A stretch of 8,307 nt of DNA from Candidatus Pacearchaeota archaeon (lineage in GTDB: Archaea > Nanoarchaeota > Nanoarchaeia > Pacearchaeales > GW2011-AR1), in assembly GCA_002690445.1 (NCBI GenBank), contig NZER01000107.1, positions 1-8,307 of the forward strand, in the 5' to 3' direction. The notes under the pieces are model-generated. The model ran no database searches. It saw only the letters and a program-made list of their open reading frames with translations, and was not told where the DNA came from. A program made the position numbers and the translations under genes. Positions 1 through 8,307 of the stretch are shown here, one piece after another (positions within the stretch are counted from its first letter, which is position 1; every line of letters starts with the position of its first letter).

Positions 1-526
1 CCAAGCACTCACTCATAAACATATTTCGTCCAGTCCTGGGCTGTGGTGCCCTTGGTGCCGCTGGCTCTGGTGTCTCTGGTGTCTCTGCTGTCGTAGGCTT
101 AGCAGTCTTCACTTGTCGGTAGTCGGTAAATGCCTTCGCGCCAGTGCCTGTTGTCTCCAGGCGGAAGTCTTCTAAAAACAACTCTCCATCTTTGAAACCA
201 ACGCTAGGGACAGGGCTTCTTTTAGGTTGGCCCATCTGCTCAAGGTCTAAGTAGCCCATCGCAAACAGTAGACTGTGGTATTCACTAAATATTTTGTCTA
301 CCTGCTTTGGGGTTGCAAATTCGGCTTTCGCTTTGTAGGCAGTATCGACAGCGCCCGTCAAGCCATCAAAGGCTCTGCCGTCATCGCCGCTCTTCCGGCA
401 CTCCCAGCCAGAAAGTATCTCACTCATCGCACCGACATGCTCTTTGTTCTTGGTCGGGTTGGCCCGCAACTGACCAACGGCGAAAGCTAGTTCTAAAAGA
501 CTGATCGTACATTCTTTATCTGGCAT
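1..526 (-). CDS. Hypothetical protein, N-terminal 175 residues, runs off left edge
   Basis: I do not recognise the family. The frame is open from the ATG at 526 to the window edge, giving 175 residues with no stop, so the C-terminus is missing. A Shine-Dalgarno GAGGTG at 531-536 sits 4 bases before the ATG and fixes the start. Residues 1-135 look like a soluble, mostly helical domain. Residues 141-165 form a Thr/Pro/Glu/Ala-rich linker (TPETPEP, then APRAPQP). The last visible residues, RTGRNMFMSECL, resemble the middle of the HMG/YABBY-like tail of the protein at 5262-5522 (SAYQQHTSECMKAG), so a DNA-binding tail may begin at the edge. The gene follows the metzincin-like gene after an 18-bp gap and is probably cotranscribed. 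I am confident that it is a gene, but its function is unknown. Confidence 0.82.
   Translation of the reverse strand, partial: MPDKECTISLLELAFAVGQLRANPTKNKEHVGAMSEILSGWECRKSGDDGRAFDGLTGAVDTAYKAKAEFATPKQVDKIFSEYHSLLFAMGYLDLEQMGQPKRSPVPSVGFKDGELFLEDFRLETTGTGAKAFTDYRQVKTAKPTTAETPETPEPAAPRAPQPRTGRNMFMSECL
69..86. repeat. Short tandem repeat in the Pro-linker of the left-edge gene
   Basis: The 9-mer GGTGTCTCT occurs twice in tandem on the plus strand. On the minus strand it encodes the ETPETP part of the Pro/Thr-rich linker of the left-edge gene. It is a small slippage-type repeat inside a disordered linker. Confidence 0.6.
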
Positions 527-530
527 AAGG

Positions 531-536
531 CACCTC
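531..536 (-). promoter_or_regulatory. Ribosome binding site GAGGTG of the left-edge gene
   Basis: On the minus strand GAGGTG is followed by CCTT and then the ATG at 526. It lies in the 18-bp gap after the metzincin-like gene. It supports the start of a gene that has no stop inside the window. Confidence 0.7.
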
Positions 537-544
537 GGTCTCGA

Positions 545-1417
545 TTATAGCAGGAGATAGGGTGAACGCGGAATTAAACTCGCTGTTTCGTTATCAATAT
601 CGCATTTCGGCCAATTCCACCATTCAGTCATTATGCTGTTGATGCCTGTATGGTCTGCGCGGAACATCGAATGGAAGGTTTCGTGGATAAAAGCGCCTGT
701 CTGGGCATCGGGAGTGCAAAAACTGAGCCTCTCGTTTCTGGGCAGATAAGTGAAGACCAGATCGGGGCAAATGTTCTCCTCTAGTCCTATCTCAGAAAGC
801 CAGGATGAGAGTACAGCGTCACCGACGATACCCCAGCTAACATTCTCAAGGTTTTGGTCAACATTCAAGGCGCCGGCATAGCCACCAGCTCCTCTAACTA
901 ATAACTGCCACGTCTGGTTGGCCCACTGTAACCTTTCGTGATACGGGTTAAACATGCTCTCCGGTCCACGTCGCCAGCTCATCCATTCAAAGAGCATTTT
1001 GGGTAGATTGCCGTTGAGAACCTCGTCCAATACCTCTTCGGAACTAAAAGGCATCCGCAGATGAACGATGTTGGGGTCGTAGGCAATCCGTCTTCCATCT
1101 GTGAGAGGCGTTACATGCTCCCTTGCCCATTCACCGGCCATCTTGTACCTGCGTTCGATGTGCCTAAGCCCTTCTGATGTTACAGGGGCGTCATCGGTAT
1201 CAAGTACGAAAACCTTACAGATGCCAAATTCGCGGTTAGGGTTGGGCATTGCAGGAAGGTCGGGAACTGGGATGAAGGATTCTTCTTCTTCCTCTTCCTC
1301 TGTCTCATCCGGCAAAACTTCGAAATCGGATTCAACGTGAACGTCCGCGTAAGCCTGCTTTCCCACCTGGGTAAGAACAAATAGCGCAACCGCCCCTAAT
1401 GCTATCGGTATGAACAT
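545..1417 (-). CDS. Exported metzincin-like zinc metalloprotease (predicted)
   Basis: A 290-residue protein starting at ATG 1417, where GGTGAG lies just upstream and the preceding gene's TGA is one base away. Residues 2-17 are a hydrophobic helix ending near AYA-D, which fits a signal peptide or N-terminal anchor. A very acidic stretch (seven consecutive Glu, about residues 41-47) and a Pro-rich linker follow. Near the C-terminus is HETFHSMFRADH (residues 245-256): HExxH, with Asp255 at the position of the third metal ligand in HExxHxxGxxD peptidases and His256 one residue later. Five residues on comes SIMTEW (261-266), which resembles the Met-turn of matrixins and other metzincins. The usual Gly of the long consensus is replaced by Phe. 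It follows a holin-like gene, so a role at the cell envelope (lysis, entry or processing) is plausible. Substrate is unknown. A TTG 18 bases upstream could extend it by 6 residues. Confidence 0.8.
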   Translation of the reverse strand: MFIPIALGAVALFVLTQVGKQAYADVHVESDFEVLPDETEEEEEEESFIPVPDLPAMPNPNREFGICKVFVLDTDDAPVTSEGLRHIERRYKMAGEWAREHVTPLTDGRRIAYDPNIVHLRMPFSSEEVLDEVLNGNLPKMLFEWMSWRRGPESMFNPYHERLQWANQTWQLLVRGAGGYAGALNVDQNLENVSWGIVGDAVLSSWLSEIGLEENICPDLVFTYLPRNERLSFCTPDAQTGAFIHETFHSMFRADHTGINSIMTEWWNWPKCDIDNETASLIPRSPYLLL

Positions 1418-1418
1418 C

Positions 1419-1580
1419 TCACCAACTCTGAACAAGCATAGTGATGATTCCGGCCAGAGTGAGCGTGGTTATGCCCAGCAATATCTTGACCTGGCCTTCA
1501 AGGTTTCCAACTCGAGAAACCATGTGAGGCCAATGGTTGTCCAAAAAGCGATCCATTCGGTCAACGTGGCGCTCTTCCAT
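1419..1580 (-). CDS. XhlA/holin-like small membrane protein, 53 aa
   Basis: The ATG at 1580 overlaps the TGA of the preceding 39-aa gene (ATGA-type coupling), and the stop lies one base before the next start. The layout is a charged amphipathic N-terminus (residues 1-30: METs, His, Asp and Arg, with FLDNHWPHM and VGNLEGQV) followed by one transmembrane helix (about 31-50, LLGITTLTLAGIITMLV) and a short QSW tail. This N-terminal coiled-coil plus C-terminal helix is the architecture of the hemolysin XhlA/phage holin family, although family members are usually longer (about 70-90 residues). Three other tiny membrane or metal-binding genes precede it and an exported metalloprotease-like gene follows, which fits a lysis or membrane-remodelling role. 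The gene is well supported by its tight fit; the holin role is an inference. Confidence 0.75.
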   Translation of the reverse strand: MEERHVDRMDRFLDNHWPHMVSRVGNLEGQVKILLGITTLTLAGIITMLVQSW

Positions 1581-1699
1581 CAGATGGGTTTCCTTGCAAA
1601 CAAGAATCCCAAGGCAAAGGCACTTAACAGGAGTATGCCTACCCAGCCGCCCGCAGCGGCTTCTTTTTCAGCGTAAGGCCGATATTCAACGCTGGCCAT
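1580..1699 (-). CDS. Single-pass membrane microprotein, 39 aa
   Basis: The ATG at 1699 shares its A with the TAA of the upstream zinc-knuckle gene (TAATG), and its TGA overlaps the ATG of the holin-like gene (TGATG). These two couplings are the main evidence that it is real. The protein has a short N-terminal region with Glu/Lys/Tyr (VEYRPYAEKEAA), then one transmembrane helix rich in Gly, Leu, Ala and Phe (about residues 18-35) and a positively charged end (ARKPI), predicting N-out/C-in topology. I do not recognise a family. It could be a small holin or antiholin partner of the next gene, or a minor virion membrane protein. Confidence 0.75.
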   Translation of the reverse strand: MASVEYRPYAEKEAAAGGWVGILLLSAFALGFLFARKPI

Positions 1700-1839
1700 T
1701 AGCTTATCTTCTCCCAGTAGGTGCCCCTTTCTTTGGTATAAAACCTTAGCTCTACATTGTGGCAGAACTTACAGGAACGTGAACCCCAAGCATCTTCGGG
1801 TTCCCACCGGTGGCCTATGAACTTACATAGTTTAACCAT
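1699..1839 (-). CDS. Zinc-knuckle microprotein, DUF1660-like, 46 aa
   Basis: The start chosen is ATG 1839 (MVKLCKF...). It overlaps the end of the upstream membrane gene by 8 nt and has CCGGAAG just upstream. The same frame is open to 1905, but that extension would lie wholly inside the upstream gene. The visible metal-binding pattern is Cys5-x4-His10 (CKFIGHRW) and Cys23-x2-Cys26 (CKFCH), as in small phage proteins of the DUF1660 type, which begin with an LCxxxGHxW motif and end in a CxxC ribbon. The C-terminus carries basic and aromatic residues (RFYTKERGTYW). It probably binds one zinc ion. Whether it binds nucleic acid or a protein partner is unknown. Confidence 0.78.
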   Translation of the reverse strand: MVKLCKFIGHRWEPEDAWGSRSCKFCHNVELRFYTKERGTYWEKIS

Positions 1840-2023
1840 CTTCCGGCCCCTCATTCTCGATGATACGCAGGCTGACGCCACCCAAGAAACCAAAAACTCC
1901 GCCAACGATGGCTGTCAGAATCTCAGTGGCTCCCATCTTGTATCCCAAATACGATGCGAACATTGAAAAGGTGGTAGCGCAGATGATGGCGGCTAGAATC
2001 TGCGGTCTTATCTTTGCCATCAT
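1832..2023 (-). CDS. Two-helix membrane protein, 63 aa
   Basis: It starts with two consecutive ATG codons at 2023 and 2020. AGGA at 2031-2034, overlapping the previous gene's TAG, gives a good ribosome site for the first. Two hydrophobic segments are visible: residues 9-29 (ILAAIICATTFSMFASYLGY) and 33-53 (EILTAIVGGVFGFLGGVSL), joined by a very short turn, giving a helical hairpin. The C-terminus is acidic (ENEGPEDG). The second helix is Gly-rich (GG...G..GG), which favours tight helix packing. The family is not recognised. A short hairpin of this kind, followed within 450 bases by a holin-like gene, could be a holin partner, but it could equally be a virion membrane protein. Confidence 0.82.
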   Translation of the reverse strand: MMAKIRPQILAAIICATTFSMFASYLGYKMGATEILTAIVGGVFGFLGGVSLRIIENEGPEDG

Positions 2024-2032
2024 GTTATCGTC

Positions 2033-2215
2033 CTAAATTGGTGACGTAACTTTTTCTTTCTGGGTAAAGTATATCGTGATTGCGCCCAGAGGTGGCAGTC
2101 CGATAGTTACGGCTCCATCGCCTATCATTACGGGTTTGCCTAGCTTTACGCCTGCCCGGAAGATAGCACCGAACTTTTCACCGATTGAAACCTGTACTTT
2201 TATCGCTGATCCCAT
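2033..2215 (-). CDS. Small hypothetical protein, beta-rich, 60 aa
   Basis: The start at ATG 2215 has a perfect AGGAGG at 2220-2225 with 4-base spacing, so expression may be strong. The sequence alternates hydrophobic and polar residues (IKVQVSIG, KPVMIGDGAVTIGLPPLGAITIYF) with many Gly and Pro, suggesting a compact beta fold rather than a membrane helix, although residues 35-50 are fairly hydrophobic. There is no Cys and no recognisable catalytic motif. It lies 8 bp after the 729-aa multidomain gene and 9 bp before a two-helix membrane gene. A small virion or accessory protein is possible, but the function is unknown. Confidence 0.8.
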   Translation of the reverse strand: MGSAIKVQVSIGEKFGAIFRAGVKLGKPVMIGDGAVTIGLPPLGAITIYFTQKEKVTSPI

Positions 2216-2219
2216 GTTT

Positions 2220-2225
2220 CCTCCT
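2220..2225 (-). promoter_or_regulatory. Strong Shine-Dalgarno AGGAGG overlapping the stop of the 729-aa gene
   Basis: AGGAGG on the minus strand, four bases before the ATG at 2215, overlaps the TAG stop (2224-2226) of the large multidomain gene. It is the best match to the anti-Shine-Dalgarno consensus in the window together with the one at 5110-5119. It suggests the small beta-rich protein is made at a higher level than its neighbours. Confidence 0.75.
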
Positions 2226-4413
2226 AACTAACCAACGCCTCTATGTCGGCGGCGTACCGGGAAAGACCTGATAGGTCCGTAAATGAACTTCTGCTGGGCT
2301 GATGCGAGATTCTGGCTTCTATTAACTCGGCCGCCTTCCATGTAGTGTATCCATCCAGATACATTTCCAAAACTTCTTCGTTGAAAGTCTCTTGAGGGAG
2401 TCCTAAAGCCTCTTGGGCAGTCACAATAGGGTCTGCCTCAAATAGTTTGCCTTCTCTACGTTTGTAAGTGCTGGAAATGCCAAATTCGATGAGGTCTTCT
2501 TGCAAGTTTTGGAGCCAGTTCTGAAAGACCACATCTTCTGGGCGTAGGGGCCAACCTTCGTGCGGGTATTTGCCACGCTGGTAGTATCGCTTCTGGGCTT
2601 CTGTTGGTTCCCAGTCAGGGTCAAACTTATGGCTGGGTTCATCATCAAAGGGAACATCACCGGGGTTTAGCATCCAGTCCGGCATCCTCGGTAAATCAAC
2701 CCGTGAGTCAACCCAGTCAAAATTGTCGTCCTCGTCTAGGTTGTGAGGCCGTTCAATGAGTATCTCGTTCTTTGGGTCCCAGTCATAATCATCGATATTC
2801 TCAAAGTTGGCCATAACAAGATTCATCGGATGGTACGGCCCGTGCTTCCCCTCGTGCTTAATCTCCAAGAAGTTTGCCGCAAGTGGACTTAGCTTGTAAT
2901 CAACGATTGGGTCAAGAAGTTCGTAGTATCTTTCCTTGTCTATTACGGAGCCGGTTGTTGGGTCGAAAACTTTATCTTCTATCTCTACCCACGCATGCCC
3001 TCCGTAACCAGGGTGCTTGGTGTCCGTAGTTTCGCCTTGTGTCAACATCCGAACTCGGCCATGAACAATCCTAATGTCTTCGCTAACTGCGTCACCGCCA
3101 AAGTCCCAGTTTTCCATCGCAGACTGGTATGCGTTGGAGTAGCACTGGCCAGGTCTGCAAAGGTCAGGGTCTCGTCTTACCTCTTCTTCTTGGATGTAAG
3201 GGATGTACCGGGCGCCGAACCTCTCCAGGCTTTCGATGTGCTGGTCTATCAGCTCCACGACATCGGAATACGCACCCGCCTTACTCCGTATCTGGCGGAG
3301 CATGTCTAACGCCGCTTCAGTGCTTAGCGTTTGGCTGGTCTGCCCTCTCATAACGAGGGATATCTGTTCTTTGAGCCACTCCGGAGTGCCAGGTTCCTCG
3401 CCCCGGTAGGCTGAAGGGCCGTAAGGTTCCGGCAACGGCAGTCTAAGCGTGTTCAGGAAGTTCCGGCTCTTCCGCACGGCCTGCTTGTCGGCTTTCGTGT
3501 CTGTGTCCCCTGGATTGTTCAGCCAGGTATCGTAGTCATCCCTGGTAAATCTTAGCTTGTTGCCGTCTTTATCGTACTTCTGAGATTGGATCAGCTCTAT
3601 CCACGTCGCAACGTGCCATACGTTAGCCGGCAACCCTTCCTTCTCGGCTTGCCGGTAAGCGGCGTCCCGATACATTTGGTAATACTGAGGTTTGCTTTGA
3701 ATCCACCCTTGAACGTATCCGCTTCCACCTACGATATGTAACTCGTTGTTCTCATCGATATCTTCAGGTTGGACAAAGTTGTCTGCCTCCGCTGGCTGGC
3801 CGGGTGTTTTAAGGTTTAACTTCTCGCCTCTTTCCCGCATCACCTTCAGCGTGCCTTGAATAAGCTGGCGCCAGGATTGCCCTCCTAATTGCGGCACCTG
3901 GGGGGTTAAGTATCTCAACATCCAAAGGTCAATCACCGGCACTTCGCATCCGCCCCATAACAAGGTCATGTCAGCGCCTTTCGTTGCCAGACCAATTTCC
4001 ATGTTTGCAATGCGCTTGTTGGGATTCCCTCCTCTAGCGTCCAAGCTGAAGTTCCTTACCCGCGCTTGCGAGTCCTCATCGGGACATCGTAGCAAGTATG
4101 AAAGTTCGTCCCAGACTTGCGGAACTTTACACAATGACTTCGCCTTCTTTCTGCGGTCACGGAGATTCTGCAACCCGGAACCTAACTTCGGGTTGTCCCG
4201 GTCTTTCGCCGGCAATTCGTCCATGGGGCAAGCGTTCCTAAGAGCGTCCACCGTCGGAAAGTTCTTCCAAAGCCCTTCCAGTATGTCCCTCTCCGTTGCT
4301 GATCCACGCTGATTAGTAGACGCATAACCACGCAGGAAGACTTCCCACGTCGATTTCTTCTTCGTGTGGTTCAGCGCGGCCCGCGCCATCGTTATAAATT
4401 CAGGCTTAGCCAT
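2224..4413 (-). CDS. Multidomain protein: HhH-GPD DNA-glycosylase-like + Cys-His-Asp (transglutaminase/papain-like) domain
   Basis: This 729-residue protein is the longest in the window. Its ATG at 4413 overlaps the upstream stop by 8 nt. Residues about 25-170 follow the endonuclease III pattern: a helix with STNQRGSATERD, then NFPTVDALRNACPMDEL, then GLQNLRDRRKKAKSLC, then a degenerate helix-hairpin-helix IGLATKGAD (140-148) and VPVIDLWMLRYL (158-169). Lys145 and Asp162 match the catalytic Lys and Asp of EndoIII/Ogg enzymes, with a spacing (17) close to the EndoIII value (18). No iron-sulfur Cys set is seen. Residues about 230-280 (YYQMYRDAAYRQ, GLPANVWHVATW) may complete that fold. Residues 415-500 hold GQCYSNA (Cys424), GHAWVEIED (His473) and KVFDPTTG (Asp484), the triad order of transglutaminase-like cysteine hydrolases. 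The C-terminal 230 residues are acidic, Trp/Pro/Asp-rich, and end in helices. The fusion recalls viral polyvalent proteins. Substrates are unknown. Confidence 0.8.
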   Translation of the reverse strand: MAKPEFITMARAALNHTKKKSTWEVFLRGYASTNQRGSATERDILEGLWKNFPTVDALRNACPMDELPAKDRDNPKLGSGLQNLRDRRKKAKSLCKVPQVWDELSYLLRCPDEDSQARVRNFSLDARGGNPNKRIANMEIGLATKGADMTLLWGGCEVPVIDLWMLRYLTPQVPQLGGQSWRQLIQGTLKVMRERGEKLNLKTPGQPAEADNFVQPEDIDENNELHIVGGSGYVQGWIQSKPQYYQMYRDAAYRQAEKEGLPANVWHVATWIELIQSQKYDKDGNKLRFTRDDYDTWLNNPGDTDTKADKQAVRKSRNFLNTLRLPLPEPYGPSAYRGEEPGTPEWLKEQISLVMRGQTSQTLSTEAALDMLRQIRSKAGAYSDVVELIDQHIESLERFGARYIPYIQEEEVRRDPDLCRPGQCYSNAYQSAMENWDFGGDAVSEDIRIVHGRVRMLTQGETTDTKHPGYGGHAWVEIEDKVFDPTTGSVIDKERYYELLDPIVDYKLSPLAANFLEIKHEGKHGPYHPMNLVMANFENIDDYDWDPKNEILIERPHNLDEDDNFDWVDSRVDLPRMPDWMLNPGDVPFDDEPSHKFDPDWEPTEAQKRYYQRGKYPHEGWPLRPEDVVFQNWLQNLQEDLIEFGISSTYKRREGKLFEADPIVTAQEALGLPQETFNEEVLEMYLDGYTTWKAAELIEARISHQPSRSSFTDLSGLSRYAADIEALVS

Positions 4414-4657
4414 CTACCGGTTCTGCCTCACCTGCGATTCCGTCTTCAAATTTGTCGCACTCCCACTCGTCTTCTTCATCCAACATGCAGAAGACATGTT
4501 CTCCTCCGGAGTACGCGGCTCCTACTTCAATGCCGCCTTGCCTTACCAGCTCACCGTCTTTGTAGACTTTGACGGAGCCGTCTGTAGCGCCCAGGATAAC
4601 GGTGTCAACTTTGGATTCGTCCATGACCTTTTTGACATGTTCTTCTTCAGTAGGCAT
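4406..4657 (-). CDS. Acidic hypothetical protein, 83 aa
   Basis: The ATG at 4657 shares its A with the TAA of the upstream gene (TAATG), and the stop overlaps the start of the 729-aa gene by 8 nt, so translation is coupled on both sides. Residues 1-16 are charged and helical (EEEHVKKVMDESK). Residues 17-58 look like a small beta sheet with Gly turns (DTVILGATDGSVKVYKDG, QGGIEVGAAYSGGEH). The remainder is strongly acidic (LDEEDEWECDKFEDG) with two Cys (57 and 67). I recognise no family. A strongly acidic small protein directly before a predicted DNA-glycosylase-like protein could be a partner or a DNA mimic, but nothing in the sequence proves this. Confidence 0.8.
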   Translation of the reverse strand: MPTEEEHVKKVMDESKVDTVILGATDGSVKVYKDGELVRQGGIEVGAAYSGGEHVFCMLDEEDEWECDKFEDGIAGEAEPVDG

Positions 4658-5100
4658 TACTTCCTCGTCATCTTGGTAAAGATTCGTTCTGCTCTCTTCT
4701 TTGCCTTCGCCACAAACTCAGGGTCTGCGGTCGGGCGTAAGTTATCCCCGCGAAACTCAGTGCGTGAATCGGACTCAAAAGATGAGAAGATTGAGTCCTG
4801 GCCAAGCTCTTTCGCTACACGGTCAGCCAACTCCCGCATCCACTGGACCGCATTATCAACTTGTTCCCAAGCGGTGGCCTCTACCTCTGTCCCTACGTGC
4901 ATCACGCTTTCCATGACGTAGTTCTCGTCGCACATAAGCGGTTTCTTTGGCGGACGAAAACAACCAACAGACTCCCACATAGTGACCCCGCCGAACCTAT
5001 CGACCAACTCCCCTGCCAAGTCCTCAAGATATTTTTTCTTGATAGGTTGGTCGGAGTTGTCGTAGCGTGGAAAGATAATCCTGAAGCTCCTTTCAGGCAT
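4657..5100 (-). CDS. Small soluble protein with FGGVT motif, 147 aa
   Basis: The start at ATG 5100 has a long purine-rich ribosome site (GGAGGAGGAG, 5110-5119). The N-terminal half reads beta-strand (FRIIFPRYD), helix (KKYLEDLAGELVDRF), GGVTMWESVGCF (37-48), then a strand with ENYVMESVMHVG. The order 'helix-FGGxT-...-G-x-[W/F]-strand with a Glu' is shared by a group of small ferredoxin-like-fold hypothetical proteins found in viruses and prokaryotes; I match it by pattern only. Residues 78-100 are an amphipathic helix (WEQVDNAVQWMRELADRVAKEL). The C-terminus is Lys/Arg-rich (AKAKKRAERIFTKMTRK) and might touch nucleic acid. It is followed directly by the acidic 83-aa gene. Function is unknown. 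Confidence 0.8.
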   Translation of the reverse strand: MPERSFRIIFPRYDNSDQPIKKKYLEDLAGELVDRFGGVTMWESVGCFRPPKKPLMCDENYVMESVMHVGTEVEATAWEQVDNAVQWMRELADRVAKELGQDSIFSSFESDSRTEFRGDNLRPTADPEFVAKAKKRAERIFTKMTRK

Positions 5101-5109
5101 TAGTAGTAT

Positions 5110-5119
5110 CTCCTCCTCC
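5110..5119 (-). promoter_or_regulatory. Extended Shine-Dalgarno GGAGGAGGAG
   Basis: A ten-base purine run on the minus strand contains two overlapping GGAGG cores, about 9 bases before the ATG at 5100. It occupies the 36-bp spacer after the tiny membrane gene, the largest gap in the window. This fixes the start of the 147-aa gene and suggests efficient, independent initiation. Confidence 0.7.
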
Positions 5120-5136
5120 GATTCTCTTTATCATCA

Positions 5137-5256
5137 TCACCGCCTCCGCCCCCTCCTCAGCCCAAGCCGGTACAGCGCATCATAATATGATTCTTCTTCT
5201 TCGGCCTGGCCAAATAGTAGGGGAACTGCCAGTAGTGCTATTAAGACAATCGGCAT
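5137..5256 (-). CDS. Tiny signal-anchor membrane protein, 39 aa
   Basis: The start chosen is ATG 5256, with GGGAAG nine bases upstream and a 6-bp gap after the stop of the HMG-like gene. An in-frame ATG at 5286 would add ten residues (MEEEEGKLTP) and overlap that gene by 25 nt, but has no ribosome site. Residues 1-15 are a hydrophobic helix (MPIVLIALLAVPLLF), then GQA and four Glu (29-32 of the longer form), then a Tyr-rich helix (SYYDALYRLGL) and an all-basic end (RRGRRR). Three TGA codons in tandem follow. The split of acidic and basic patches after one short helix suggests a small membrane-bound adaptor. Family not recognised. Confidence 0.7.
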   Translation of the reverse strand: MPIVLIALLAVPLLFGQAEEEESYYDALYRLGLRRGRRR

Positions 5257-5261
5257 CGGAG

Positions 5262-5522
5262 TTAGCTTCCCTTCTTCTTCTTCCATTGGGCCGCACAGTC
5301 AGCCATGGTATGGCCCGCCTTCATGCACTCGGAGGTGTGCTGTTGATAGGCACTGGGCGCACGCTTCCCTTTGCTTCCGCCTCGGCCAAACTCGACCATC
5401 TTCTCGTCGCAGTCGGTTAACTTCTTAACTTTGCTGATGATGGCTTTAGAGACTTCTAGCTCTTTTAGCACTTCAATCAAGGCCTCTTTAACTTCGGGAT
5501 GTAAGCAAACAATGGTTGACAT
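5262..5522 (-). CDS. Small basic protein with HMG/YABBY-like C-terminal motif, 86 aa
   Basis: The ATG at 5522 shares its A with the TAA of the upstream gene. Residues 8-35 form an amphipathic helical segment (EVKEALIEVLKELEVSKAIISKVKK read in parts), possibly for oligomerisation. Residues 49-86 are basic: a Gly/Lys-rich hinge, then KRAPSAYQQHTSECMKAG (53-70) and DCAAQWKKKKGS (75-86). The order 'R-x-PSAY, two helices, then CAA-x-W-Lys run' resembles the minimal HMG-box/YABBY half-domain (PSAYN...F...AAxxW) known from DNA-bending proteins and seen in several large viruses. Its size, charge and motif suggest a virion or genome-associated DNA-binding protein. It sits beside a possible structural protein, which agrees with that. 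The fold is inferred from the pattern only. Confidence 0.8.
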   Translation of the reverse strand: MSTIVCLHPEVKEALIEVLKELEVSKAIISKVKKLTDCDEKMVEFGRGGSKGKRAPSAYQQHTSECMKAGHTMADCAAQWKKKKGS

Positions 5523-6127
5523 TACTGTGCGTATACCCCAACGAAAGGTTGCTCGGAGCCGTTATCCTGCGGAAGAACGCGCAGGGGCGGAGTGTCAGTG
5601 GTAACTCCGAAAAGCCACTTAAACTCATGTTCATCCAGCCTTTCCGAGTGTGACATTTTGGCGTTTTCTTGTTCCTGCTGATAGAGAGCGAGCTTCAAAT
5701 GAAACTGGGCACCCCGGTCACTCATCTCGTCCCAGAACTCTCTTAGTTGCATGTTCCAGGCAGGCCCAGGCAACTGCAAGCTCCCGGTAAACCCGGCAGC
5801 AAAGTTACCCTTGATGGAGGCACTTCGGTCAGGAGCAACCATTGATCTAGCGCCGTACTTTGTCATTATGTCGGTAGTCGGTCGTCCGTTGTTTTCGCCC
5901 GGCTTCCATTCTACCCAGGTCTGATCGGCACCAGCGAAACTAGGAACGGCGAATGGATTAGGGACCCAACTCCCTGACAATGGCACAAAACCGATATCGT
6001 GTTTAAGCTCAACATACTGGCCAGCCCAGAGCGCGGCTGAACTGTCGTTCACCATATTCCAAGACCAAACTATTAAAATGGTTTTGGCCTGGTAGATGCT
6101 TATTTTCCCTAATTGTGTTTCTGACAT
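5522..6127 (-). CDS. Hypothetical protein, possibly structural, 201 aa
   Basis: ATG 6127 has GAGGG at 6133-6137 with good spacing, and the previous gene ends 9 bases upstream. No signal peptide or membrane segment is seen beyond a short hydrophobic strand (ILIVWSW, 17-23). The first 125 residues are rich in Trp, Phe, Gly, Pro and Ser with short strands (ALWAGQYVEL, IGFVPLSGSW, TWVEWKPG, SIKGNFAAGFTGSLQL), as in beta-sandwich virion proteins. Residues 125-168 are helical and charged (NMQLREFWDEM, HLKLALYQQEQENAKM). The last 35 residues return to strands and end in GVYAQ. I do not recognise the family. Beta-rich content and position between membrane and DNA-binding small proteins make a minor capsid or spike protein possible, at low confidence. 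Confidence 0.78.
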   Translation of the reverse strand: MSETQLGKISIYQAKTILIVWSWNMVNDSSAALWAGQYVELKHDIGFVPLSGSWVPNPFAVPSFAGADQTWVEWKPGENNGRPTTDIMTKYGARSMVAPDRSASIKGNFAAGFTGSLQLPGPAWNMQLREFWDEMSDRGAQFHLKLALYQQEQENAKMSHSERLDEHEFKWLFGVTTDTPPLRVLPQDNGSEQPFVGVYAQ

Positions 6128-6136
6128 ATCAGCCCT

Positions 6137-6361
6137 CTACTCATAGATTGCCGTTACCGCACGGATTCGTACCGGGTCAATAACATTCAGATTACCGGGA
6201 CGCTCTCTACTTTCGCCAGCGATCCTGGCCTTCCCCTGGTCAATCTGGGTCACGTTGGCCTCAGTGTCAGGCTCATCCTCATCACTCCTCATGAAGAAGC
6301 CAAGGCCAGCAATGGCGGCGCCGCCTGCTAAAAGCACTAGTCCAAAGTTTTTCACCGTCAT
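6137..6361 (-). CDS. Single-pass membrane protein, 74 aa
   Basis: The ATG at 6361 overlaps the TGA of the upstream membrane gene (ATGA), with AAGGAG at 6365-6370, a slightly short 3-base spacing. Residues 5-23 are one Gly/Ala/Leu-rich transmembrane helix (FGLVLLAGGAAIAGLGFF). Arg25 marks the cytoplasmic side, then comes a highly acidic patch (SDEDEPDTE). The rest is soluble, with a basic region (KARIAGESRERPG) and a short end (VRIRAVTAIYE). I know no family for it. The helix-plus-acidic-patch design recurs in this window (5137-5256 and 545-1417). It is probably a virion membrane or membrane-tether protein cotranscribed with the multi-pass protein before it. Confidence 0.82.
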   Translation of the reverse strand: MTVKNFGLVLLAGGAAIAGLGFFMRSDEDEPDTEANVTQIDQGKARIAGESRERPGNLNVIDPVRIRAVTAIYE

Positions 6362-7014
6362 CTACTCCTTGTTAGCAGAACAACCCCGACGAGCATCACG
6401 CCAGCACCAATAAGTATCGGAGTCATAAATGGTTTGACCACAGTAGCTACTGCTCCGGCAACATACTTAAAGACTTTAATCAAGGAGTCGGGATCAACCA
6501 TAGCCCAAATCAACGTACCGCCAATAACCAACGTAGATGTGCTGAAGAAGAACCGCCCAAACCGTGTTTTGCCAAGGGCTGTGATGGCCGTCCTTATCCC
6601 GCCCAGGATGGCACCAGGGCGTAAAAAGGCTAAAGAAAAAAGAGCGCTTCCCCTGGCCGCCATGGGGGCCGCTCTCGCCAATGCCATTGCGATAGGCCCA
6701 GCCGCCATAAAGTAAGACGGGGTATAGCGACCCGGGTCGTCATGGGCAATAAAGTAGATGTGTATAGTGCGGTTCGGCCAATCGACTTCAACAGGTTTCT
6801 TCCCTGGCCAAGGCATCAATCCGTCTTCTACCAAGAACTGGGACATAGACTCTGCCGACTCAAAGATGTTGTCTTTCTCAAATTCATTAGCCATATCGGG
6901 GTCTAGTCGAAGGACCACTTCTCCGTGTTCTCCAGGCGCAAAGTCCCTGTCTATTTTCTGGAGGTCATCGGTTATGTCGTCGCTTGGGTAAAATTCTCTT
7001 ACCAGTTCAGCCAT
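6358..7014 (-). CDS. Multi-pass membrane protein with soluble N-terminal domain, 218 aa
   Basis: The ATG at 7014 shares its A with the TAA of the upstream gene, and GGAGG lies about 11 bases before it. Residues 1-95 are a soluble, acidic domain (DDITDDLQKIDRDF, EVVLRLDPDM, VDWPNRTIHIYFIAHDDPG). The C-terminal half is hydrophobic: about 101-118 and 123-145 (small-residue-rich, perhaps amphipathic), 155-173 (FFFSTSTLVIGGTLIWAMV) and 195-215 (FMTPILIGAGVMLVGVVLL), ending in TRSR. Three to four helices are likely. There is no transporter or enzyme motif. Small-residue helices with a soluble head could serve as a virion internal-membrane or DNA-delivery protein, but this is only a guess from the layout. 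Confidence 0.82.
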   Translation of the reverse strand: MAELVREFYPSDDITDDLQKIDRDFAPGEHGEVVLRLDPDMANEFEKDNIFESAESMSQFLVEDGLMPWPGKKPVEVDWPNRTIHIYFIAHDDPGRYTPSYFMAAGPIAMALARAAPMAARGSALFSLAFLRPGAILGGIRTAITALGKTRFGRFFFSTSTLVIGGTLIWAMVDPDSLIKVFKYVAGAVATVVKPFMTPILIGAGVMLVGVVLLTRSR

Positions 7015-7292
7015 TAGACGTTATCCTCCGGCCACCAAGTGTCTCCGTTGTCAAACTGATACTCCCAGTTAGACCTTAGACCCGTAACAGTCGTTGTACC
7101 AACCCGATCACCCAGTTCGTATGTGGGCTGGCTTGTAGCCCTCCTGCCGCCCTTCTTTGCACCGCCACTTATCCACCACGAAAAGAACGTAGTGAATCCC
7201 ATGCCCAACAGAATGACGGCAGGGTTCACCCGCTGTAGAAGGCCACCGCGAGTGCCGTTAATGCCTGGTGGTGCTTCTTTTAACTCGACCAT
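7014..7292 (-). CDS. One-pass membrane protein with SH3/Tudor-like tail, 92 aa
   Basis: The ATG at 7292 overlaps the end of the HELYH gene by 13 nt, with AGGA 11 bases upstream. Residues 24-41 form one membrane helix (PAVILLGMGFTTFFSWWI). A basic Gly-rich linker follows (GGAKKGGRR, 43-51). Residues 57-92 look like a small five-strand barrel: YELGDRVGTTTVTGL, then WEYQFDNGDTWWPEDNV. The order 'GDxV...GxxxxxxY-x-F-x-N-G-x-x-W-W-x-E' is typical of Tudor/SH3-like or KOW-like modules. Such a module could bind peptidoglycan, a protein tail or nucleic acid on one side of the membrane. With the basic linker after the helix, the tail is probably cytoplasmic. The match is by eye only. Confidence 0.8.
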   Translation of the reverse strand: MVELKEAPPGINGTRGGLLQRVNPAVILLGMGFTTFFSWWISGGAKKGGRRATSQPTYELGDRVGTTTVTGLRSNWEYQFDNGDTWWPEDNV

Positions 7293-7714
7293 GCCGCTGG
7301 GTATCCTTTAGCTAAAAGGTGTTCCTTAACTTCTACTTCAAACTCGTATGCTGGCCTCTCAAAGGGGTTCTCCCACGGTTCCAGGCCGGCCTCTTCTGTT
7401 TCTTTTGCTGCTTGAAGGAAACGCTGTTCAAAGTTTGGATAAACCTCTCTCTGCCAAACATGGTAGAGTTCGTGCGCCCGGAGAGCTTCCCCTGTAGCCG
7501 TCCTTGGTTCGTAGTAATCAGGATGAAGGATGATAAGTCCAGGCTCAGGGTTACTCCCTATCTTTACCAATCTGTTGGCGCTTGGGTGAATGTCAGTGCA
7601 GGTCACGCACAGCACTCGTTCCGGAACACGAATTTGGGTTTCCGTGCCCTCCAGAATCCAGTCAGGAACGATGTTGTACAGCGGGTCATGTGTTTCTGCG
7701 TATAGTCTTGCCAT
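7280..7714 (-). CDS. Predicted HExxH zinc peptidase (gluzincin-like), 144 aa
   Basis: ATG 7714 follows the upstream TAA by two bases. The motif ALRAHELYHVWQRE places HExxH at His81, Glu82 and His85. About 34 residues further on comes NPFERPAYEFEVEV, whose Glu119 or Glu124 could be the third zinc ligand. This 'HExxH-x-x-Q ... NPxExxAY' arrangement occurs in a group of small gluzincin-like peptidases (DUF4157-type and related HELxHxxQ proteins). The segment LIILHPDYY (60-68) would be the edge strand beside the active helix. There is no signal peptide, so it is likely intracellular or carried in the virion. Residues 36-39 (CVTC) might also bind metal. It is one of two separate zinc-peptidase candidates in the window. 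Substrate is unknown; a scaffold or capsid maturation role is only a possibility. Confidence 0.82.
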   Translation of the reverse strand: MARLYAETHDPLYNIVPDWILEGTETQIRVPERVLCVTCTDIHPSANRLVKIGSNPEPGLIILHPDYYEPRTATGEALRAHELYHVWQREVYPNFEQRFLQAAKETEEAGLEPWENPFERPAYEFEVEVKEHLLAKGYPAAWSS

Positions 7715-7716
7715 AA

Positions 7717-8145
7717 TTAGAAATCCGCCGTGACCATGCCTGGAGGCCAGGCTATAGCTTCTACCTCGTAGCCGTACCCAGCTTGAAGCACCGAAACGAC
7801 TATATTGCCTACTTCTTTCACGGGTGTAGTCAGTAAATTCTGCGGCGTTAGCCCTTCAAGAGATAATGCGCGGTAGGTGACAGCATAGGAAGCGTCAAAA
7901 ATCTGCCCAGGCGTTAGCTCGGTCACTGACATTAACGCCAGTGTACGGTTACCAACCATCCATCGATGGGTAATTAGTATGTCTTGGGTGGCGGCTTCGT
8001 ACGCATACCATCTGCCTGTTCCAGCTTCCAAACTTGCAATGTTAGCTTGGTCTATTTCATACCATTCAGATAATGTGCGGTTTTTACCCTGAGCTAAAGC
8101 CATAACCGCAACGGCCGCAACACTAGCTAATAATAGGAACGTCAT
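7717..8145 (-). CDS. Hypothetical exported or membrane-anchored protein, 142 aa
   Basis: The ATG at 8145 lies 3 bases after the stop of the upstream gene, with GAGGG six bases before it. Residues 2-18 are hydrophobic (TFLLLASVAAVAVMALA), followed by QGKNR, which fits either a signal peptide cleaved after ALA or an uncleaved anchor. The rest is soluble and mixed: helix (LSEWYEIDQANIASLEAG), aromatic segment (RWYAYEAATQDILITHRWMVG), and strands (VGNIVVSVLQAGYGYEVEAIAW, read in parts). Gly and aromatic content suggests a beta fold outside the membrane. No catalytic motif or known family is visible. It stands between an acidic Glu-Pro-repeat protein and a zinc-peptidase-like gene. Confidence 0.8.
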   Translation of the reverse strand: MTFLLLASVAAVAVMALAQGKNRTLSEWYEIDQANIASLEAGTGRWYAYEAATQDILITHRWMVGNRTLALMSVTELTPGQIFDASYAVTYRALSLEGLTPQNLLTTPVKEVGNIVVSVLQAGYGYEVEAIAWPPGMVTADF

Positions 8146-8148
8146 TCT

Positions 8149-8307
8149 CTAACCCTCTTCCAACCAGGGGTCCCAGGTGAACTCCGGCTCTACATAGTCA
8201 CTTTCTTCAGTTTGCCACGGGTCTGCTACTACGACAGGCTCTAACACAATCGGCTCTGGCTCCGGCTCAGGCTCAGGCTCAGGCTCAATTTCAAAGAAGT
8301 ATTCCCA
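8149..8307 (-). CDS. C-terminus of acidic Glu-Pro-repeat protein (partial, runs off right edge)
   Basis: The minus strand is open from the right edge to the TAG at 8149-8151, giving the last 52 residues of a protein whose start lies outside the window. After a short hydrophobic entry (WEYFFEI) there are six Glu-Pro repeats (DNA 8251-8286), then IVLEPVVVADPW and a very acidic, Trp-rich tail (EESDYVEPEFTWDPWLEEG). Repeats of this kind form rigid, extended spacers, as in TonB-like and surface or spanning proteins. This could bridge a membrane or a virion layer. The next gene starts 3 bases downstream, so they share an mRNA. Function is not known. Confidence 0.75.
   Translation of the reverse strand, partial: WEYFFEIEPEPEPEPEPEPIVLEPVVVADPWQTEESDYVEPEFTWDPWLEEG
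8251..8286 (-). repeat. Six tandem Glu-Pro codon pairs (hexamer repeat)
   Basis: Tandem hexamers encode E-P six times. The right part is perfect (GAGCCT three times on the minus strand) and the left part drifts at third codon positions (CCG, CCA). Near-identity at one end suggests recent expansion or contraction by slippage, while the drifted end shows protein-level conservation of the repeat. Confidence 0.8.

Follow-up and report, generated by a model that had tools for sequence, protein, structure and literature searches.

The stretch of DNA analyzed here, termed the window, is 8,307 nucleotides long and is taken from Candidatus Pacearchaeota archaeon (assembly GCA_002690445.1, contig NZER01000107.1, positions 1 to 8,307). 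Its minus strand contains an ATG-initiated frame of 729 codons, the product of which is referred to as P0001 (Table 1). An earlier reading of the letters of the window (the original prediction) had placed a 729-amino acid (aa) protein with the residues K145, D162, C424, H473, and D484 at positions 2224–4413; the frame and all five residues were confirmed on the translation, and the strand was added. The frame was considered coding because its relative P0002 is 77% identical across 81% of the query. The longest contig carrying the frame in the protein database has 28,312 bases. P0001 and its relatives hold an N-terminal domain (N domain) and a C-terminal helix constant, and the middle is swapped between Cys-His-Asp, ADP-ribosyltransferase-like (ART-like), acetyltransferase-like (GNAT-like), helix-turn-helix (HTH), and other modules.

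The 18 relatives (P0002–P0019, from ENA and JGI contigs) were collected in two protein database searches, each scoring the approximately 8,000 candidates with the most shared words. With P0001 included, the N domain was present in 18 of the 19 proteins; P0005 starts downstream of it. The C-terminus was complete in 15 proteins, and the remaining four (P0015, P0017, P0018, and P0019) were excluded from the tail counts. All-against-all comparison of the first 13 proteins yielded a conserved N-terminal stretch of approximately 285–340 residues, stretches shared by subsets, and a short conserved end, and the modules were distinct from each other. The helical stretch with EQISLVMRGQT was found in P0001–P0006 (the motif also in P0014), the Cys-His-Asp stretch in P0001, P0002, and P0005 (3/19), RHEMSWQEALMKAQRW in P0002, P0003, and P0005, WYDHRSPEIEAQ in P0002 and P0013 with a more distant copy in P0007, and a VGFETPFGFDD-like stretch in P0008–P0013. 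GNAT-like stretches with a Y.R.G[WF] segment were recognized by eye in P0004, P0007–P0009, P0013, and P0014. HTH segments matched HTH_24 in P0009 (E 7e-12) and HTH_23 in P0013 (E 8e-8), and an ART-like stretch in P0012 matched ART-PolyVal below the cut-off (E 0.11). The pair of glycosylase-like and Cys-His-Asp domains, originally described as one unit, is present in P0001 but is not fixed, the Cys-His-Asp module being carried by two of the 18 N-domain proteins. The N-terminus of P0019 is hydrophobic and coiled-coil-like and replaces the usual start, which may be a further exchange or a chimeric contig.

Exchange was most apparent in P0006. Its N domain is 54–55% identical to those of the clade B proteins P0010, P0012, and P0007 and 41–44% to those of P0001–P0004, whereas its remainder is 76–88% identical to the clade A proteins P0001–P0004 over 68–124 residues and 29–50% to P0010, P0012, and P0007 over 26–81 residues. 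By these identities, P0006 is a plain recombinant of a clade B N domain with a clade A rest. P0014 appears recombinant-like in part: its N domain is 54–58% identical to those of P0010, P0012, and P0007 and 41–45% to those of P0001–P0004, and beyond it the identity of P0014 is 66% to P0001 (122 residues) and 33–48% to P0002–P0004.

The N domain had originally been read as glycosylase-like. A sub-threshold lead from a single sequence was obtained with the N-glycosylase/DNA lyase model PRK01229, to which residues 119–172 of P0007 aligned with 10.9 bits (E 0.21); P0001 did not match this model (NCBIfam cut-off 183 bits), and 10.9 bits was the best score among the relatives. Failure at this cut-off says little, because the OGG-fold proteins L083–L091 also fall below it. 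These nine proteins served as the reference set. They were retained from 11 matches to PRK01229 in 398 genomes, none above the cut-off, after L092 (EndoIII-like by eye) and L093 (no glycosylase-like frame among those read) were dropped. L083 matches the solved N-glycosylase/DNA lyases 3fhg, 3n0u, 3fhf, and 3knt, enzymes that are named OGG2 in the available part of PMC3397491. In hhalign, the internal filter of which retained 15 of the 18 N-domain rows, the N domain aligned to the nine proteins with a score of 37.2 (P 2.5e-4), and K145 and D162 fell exactly on the OGG Lys and Asp. Eight unrelated Escherichia coli proteins scored 10.3–21.6 against the N domain, 100 column shuffles scored at most 25.6, and the reversed profile scored 11.9; the positive control, EndoIII against OGG, gave 44.7. 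The score was 29.6 (P 0.0034) without context pseudocounts and 35.1 with clade B alone.

The homologue check was in line with this alignment. K145 and D162 are invariant in 18/18 N-domain sequences, the identity of which to P0001 drops to 34%, and they are always 17 residues apart. The hairpin is GLATK in P0001, as originally noted; GxGxK, the usual HhH-GPD form, is present in 12 of the 18 sequences (11/14 of the second clade and P0002). The cysteines of P0001 are at positions 62, 95, 110, 156, 419, and 424 only. As there is none between D162 and C419, P0001 differs from Endonuclease III by having no C-terminal Fe-S cysteine loop, which also agrees with the original prediction. The N domain is thus probably of the HhH-GPD kind, a divergent relative of OGG2 in which the catalytic Lys and Asp are retained. 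With OGG2 (3FHF, 3FHG, and 3N0U), it would have in common the HhH hairpin, the Lys and Asp in register, and the lack of an Fe-S loop. The differences are the K-to-D distance (17 residues in the N-domain family, 19 in the OGG-fold protein L084), an extra stretch before the last helix, approximately 440 further residues, and no free C-terminal lysine. The extra stretch (approximately residues 171–240) lies between the Asp helix and the last helix and has no OGG2 counterpart in the low-threshold alignment, which also places LPANVWHVATWIE on the last OGG helix. In the available part of PMC3397491, OGG2 reads 8-oxoguanine through the carboxylate of its strictly conserved C-terminal lysine, and C-terminally truncated OGG2 loses 8-oxoguanine cleavage and retains apurinic/apyrimidinic (AP) lyase activity. 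Because approximately 440 residues follow the N domain in P0001, this free lysine cannot be present, and 8-oxoguanine specificity is therefore unlikely; the predicted activity is that of an AP lyase or an enzyme acting on another base. Profile searches of solved structures with the N domain or the whole protein gave nothing usable, as did a search of IMG/VR with E. coli Nth, and one match of the N-domain profile to a 39-aa frame in the 398 genomes was rejected. The gene of L084 has a QueC-like neighbor (SGGLDS by eye), an arrangement that presumably recalls type IV CBASS; a literature search gave no confirmation.

The Cys-His-Asp module had been proposed to carry a transglutaminase/papain-like triad, and its motif suggests an enzyme of that kind. 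The motif columns lent the proposal some support; the comparison with Transglut_core3 did not, as the P0001 module scored 19.8, within 60 shuffles (up to 20.8). Of 28 Transglut_core3 places, 21 entered this comparison and 20 had letters, L139 being empty. C424, H473, and D484 are kept in the three proteins with the region, conservation that is weak on its own because these are 81–86% identical. A search for relatives with the module alone found none (four candidates, none scored). A DNA pattern derived from the motif matched 39 stretches in IMG/VR, and in five of these the motif lay in an open frame; three were kept, and L105 and L129 were discarded on visual inspection. Rescanning IMG/VR with these three viral sequences returned the same three contigs only. 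One of them had relatives in 22 records from plasmids and one phage, a coherent unnamed family of which 14 records were fetched (L167–L180). These are separate frames of 115–211 aa on plasmids of Rhizobiaceae, Microvirga, Variovorax, cyanobacteria, and actinomycetes and in one phage, hypothetical where the gene is annotated. The family of 14 has Cys in 14, Asn in 13, a following Ala in nine (otherwise Cys or Ser), Y.EG in 14, HAW in 14, and Asp in 12 or Glu in two, then Pro-Thr in 12.

When the three pattern-selected viral rows were dropped, P0001, P0002, and P0005 together aligned to the 14 with an hhalign score of 49.3 (P 1e-7, probability 94%). Out of 160 shuffles, 158 scored at most 18.0; two at 132–139 were rejected as software artefacts, their alignments (4 and 23 columns) reaching the last column of the template. 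Like the unnamed family (L106, L114, L131, and L167–L180; C..NA, Y.EG, HAW, VIDPTW), P0001 has C, N-A, H-A-W, and D-P-T in this order, a test that is partly circular. It differs in having IVHG in place of Y.EG (17/17 family rows), a longer loop, and no match outside the motif columns. P0001 was not filed as a member, because the family was reached through a search for those columns; it is plausible that the module works like the family, with a Cys-His-Asp site. The family itself matched Transglut_core3 weakly (25.0, with 60 shuffles reaching no more than 19.4), and two of the three viral sequences reached Transglut_core3 (PF13471) in Pfam with E about 0.02, below the curated cut-off. C ahead of HAW is the likeness between P0001 and Transglut_core3. 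The only PDB match of the family up to E 10 was 3re2 (E 0.71, aligning C and HAW; a lead only), which we take to be menin, with a transglutaminase-like domain. The viral sequences matched 14 chains of solved structures at E 0.69 or worse, and their profile found nothing in 299 genomes, a search with no positive control. A lead to phrog_6596 consisted of one broken frame and was rejected. In the structure model of P0001, a helix (425–434) is followed by strands (447–492), with a predicted local distance difference test score (pLDDT) below 50 there.

All 15 complete proteins end in YAxxIxxLV; a narrower regular expression for the tail matched nine of them and the helix motif matched 15. In P0007–P0013, the tail is mostly preceded by a Pro/Ser/Thr-rich linker. 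Modeled as a helix, the tail is amphipathic (Eisenberg moment 0.40–0.70; p < 0.05 in 12/15, 2,000 permutations), with p values that are not independent because the rows are related. Among the window frames, only the 729-aa frame carries the tail motif. Amphipathic helices of this kind, short and placed at the C-terminus after a flexible linker, can anchor cargo inside shells, and by analogy the tail of the P0001 family may do the same.

Table 1. Positions of P0001, its parts, and the neighboring frames in the window
Feature	Position	Strand	Basis or remark
729-aa modular protein P0001	2224–4413	-	ATG start; relatives found
Constant N domain, residues 1–285, OGG2/HhH-GPD-like	3559–4413	-	OGG2 profile match
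HhH-GPD-like motif, about residues 139–170 (GLATK...VPVID)	3904–3999	-	hhalign block
K145, predicted catalytic lysine	3979–3981	-	in register with OGG2 lysine
D162, predicted catalytic aspartate	3928–3930	-	in register with OGG2 aspartate
Residues 258–275 (KEGLPANVWHVATWIELI), aligned to OGG2 C-terminal helix	3589–3642	-	low-threshold maximum accuracy (MAC) alignment only
Helical exchange module, residues 333–400 (EQISLVMRGQT)	3214–3417	-	also P0002–P0006, P0014 (motif); helices in poor model
Cys-His-Asp module, residues 401–560, transglutaminase/papain-like by motif	2734–3213	-	motif comparison
C424	3142–3144	-	3/3 here; Cys in 14/14 fetched members of resembling family
H473	2995–2997	-	3/3 here; His in 14/14 of resembling family
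D484	2962–2964	-	3/3 here; Asp 12/14, Glu 2/14 in resembling family
Third exchange module, about residues 626–708 (NWLQNLQEDLIEFGI)	2290–2538	-	by eye also in P0014
Constant C-terminal tail, residues 709–729, YAxxIxxLV	2227–2289	-	15/15 proteins with complete C-terminus
83-aa frame upstream	4406–4657	-	8-base overlap with start of 729-codon frame
296-aa frame	545–1435	-	no Pfam match
147-aa frame	4657–5100	-	phrog_3543, unknown function (E 4.4e-5)
144-aa frame	7280–7714	-	eCIS_core PF13699 (E 2.7e-5, 24.7 bits, cut-off 22)
Small frames with strongly hydrophobic stretches	1832–2023, 6137–6361, 6358–7014, 7014–7292	-	membrane proteins by eye

The overlap of the 83-aa frame with the start of P0001 may reflect translational coupling. 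Two neighboring products may be zincin-like. The 296-aa frame has an N-terminal hydrophobic stretch and HETFHSMFRADHTGINSIM, by eye presumably like the HExxHxxxxxD and Met-turn of snapalysin-like metzincins, and the 144-aa frame, with HELYHVWQ, may encode a zincin. The position of such genes close to a polyvalent-like protein is reminiscent of the processing peptidases described by Iyer et al. (available part of PMC5512222). The phrog_3543 match of the 147-aa frame was the only one below 1e-3 among the ten window proteins scanned against PHROGs; the best match of P0001 there had E 0.18. One sigma-70-like promoter match was found in the window (1–8307), against a shuffle mean of 6.2, and the promoters of the element may be of another kind.

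Polyvalent proteins, as defined for phages and conjugative elements by Iyer et al. 2017 (PMC5512222), offer the closest comparison. The main text of that paper has no mention of glycosylase, transglutaminase, papain, or base excision and a single one of HhH, as a RadC fusion partner; ART and GNAT domains in polyvalent proteins are also mentioned in the accessible part of PMC7824862. A literature search by titles and abstract openings, with most subscription journals outside its scope, found no glycosylase-headed polyvalent protein. The P0001 family would be like polyvalent proteins in having several unrelated modules per chain, ART and GNAT being among theirs (PMC5512222, same part); what sets it apart is that a glycosylase-like N domain and a C-terminal helix stay constant. 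It appears to resemble such proteins, the anchor being new. On a 100-kb IMG/VR contig, the 688-aa frame L106 combines ART-like, GNAT-like, and Cys-His-Asp modules (by eye), each preceded by a variant of the repeated tag R.PKG....GG[QR][WF]. L106 was found through a P0001-derived pattern, and it supports the polyvalent reading because its other two modules were unselected and are of kinds exchanged in the P0001 family. In the frame next to L106, two copies of the tag occur, the first of them followed by a stretch that by eye is JAB/RadC-like. These two adjacent, large, tag-separated modular frames (L106:113-4164) may represent another polyvalent-like system that has a linker tag of its own.

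The original suggestion of a polyvalent protein is favored by the exchange of ART-like, GNAT-like, HTH, and other modules among the relatives, but phage records, plasmids, IMG/VR, and one-per-species genomes yielded no relative of P0001, and the P0001 alignment retrieved none from IMG/VR. Searches of phages with the window DNA, and of phages or IMG/VR with the other window genes, gave nothing usable. Five phage rows (E 4–9) were rejected; the one inspected was antisense to its gene. We infer that the relatives belong to uncultured elements; the viral origin, delivery, and enzymatic activity of P0001 are likewise inferred.

The original reading was partly supported and was widened to a head-and-tail chassis with an exchangeable middle. 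P0001 would be a carrier with exchangeable cargo between the constant N domain (approximately 285 residues) and the tail (approximately 20 residues), an explanation to which we give an even chance. The cargo in P0001 would be the helical, the Cys-His-Asp, and the third module. The protein would be packed with the DNA of the element or delivered beside it, the tail helix docking it on the capsid or another carrier partner. The N domain would grip DNA and either have AP lyase activity or work on a base different from 8-oxoguanine. Host proteins would be the targets of the middle modules, with the Cys-His-Asp module serving as a peptidase, deamidase, or amide-transferring enzyme. Recombination would swap the modules, so that related elements could retain the same carrier while varying the tool. 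A bolder version, which we put forward as speculative and rather unlikely, is a new delivery chassis with a glycosylase-like head, which would grip DNA and possibly cut abasic sites, and a C-terminal helix that would dock on the capsid; between the two, viruses would swap effector cassettes (the Cys-His-Asp enzyme and ART-like, acetyltransferase-like, and DNA-binding ones). The head would be coupled covalently or tightly to DNA, and genome and effector would enter the host together.

Several results weigh against the carrier reading. P0001 had no Pfam or NCBIfam match up to E 1, its single structure model was poor (mean pLDDT 47), and scans of window frames (ten with Pfam, ten with PHROGs) revealed no recognizable virion gene. 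The amphipathicity of the tail was not significant in P0001 (p 0.07), nor in P0003 and P0004 (p 0.07–0.09). When the eight motif columns of the Cys-His-Asp module were masked, the score against the family fell to 14.6, within shuffles, and the same masking against the three viral sequences gave 13.7. The hhalign probability of the N domain against OGG2 was only 43%, and clade A alone scored 19.7 (P 0.076). With K and D masked, the OGG2 score dropped to 25.5, a value comparable to the highest of the 100 unmasked shuffles. The N domain did not match EndoIII (13.1) or MutY (17.1), so that the original glycosylase reading gains profile-level support from OGG2 and not from these two. No glycosylase was among the matches listed for the N-domain profile in the 398 genomes (up to five candidates scored per genome).

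The N-domain results would also fit if the HhH-GPD likeness were due to chance, in an unrelated helical domain with a GxGxK...D pattern: there is no hidden Markov model match at threshold, the masked score equals the best shuffle, and EndoIII and MutY are unmatched. This is improbable in our view, as the reference set was picked by the NCBI model and not by the P0001 motif, the unmasked score exceeds all shuffles and unrelated proteins, and both residues are invariant. The N domain could also be an HhH-GPD relative that binds DNA or a partner without chemistry, the Cys-His-Asp module likewise being a scaffold. The degenerate hairpin of P0001, the unmatched stretch between the Asp helix and the last helix, and the impossibility of the C-terminal Lys carboxylate of OGG2 are in keeping with binding only; the invariance of Lys and Asp at such low identity speaks against it, and we hold it unlikely to a similar degree. 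If P0001 were a base-excision repair enzyme, cellular or viral, with a variable extension that is incidental and with no role in delivery or conflict, the kept catalytic residues and the N domain common to 18/19 proteins would be accounted for; since the modules of the extension recur and all 15 complete proteins share the tail, this is considered quite improbable. That the mosaic is a metagenome assembly artefact is very improbable: all proteins except P0006 are from one contig each, many of them short, but the joins are in frame and end in the same tail (15/15), the same module occurs beside different partners, and P0006, the plainest recombinant, is on two contigs.

If the carrier reading is true, base-excision chemistry would join the polyvalent-protein toolkit, and the plasmid and phage Cys-His family would gain its first functional context. 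A fixed head and tail with exchangeable effectors would constitute a natural cargo system, and because the head and the tail are short and separable, their chemistry and docking are directly testable.

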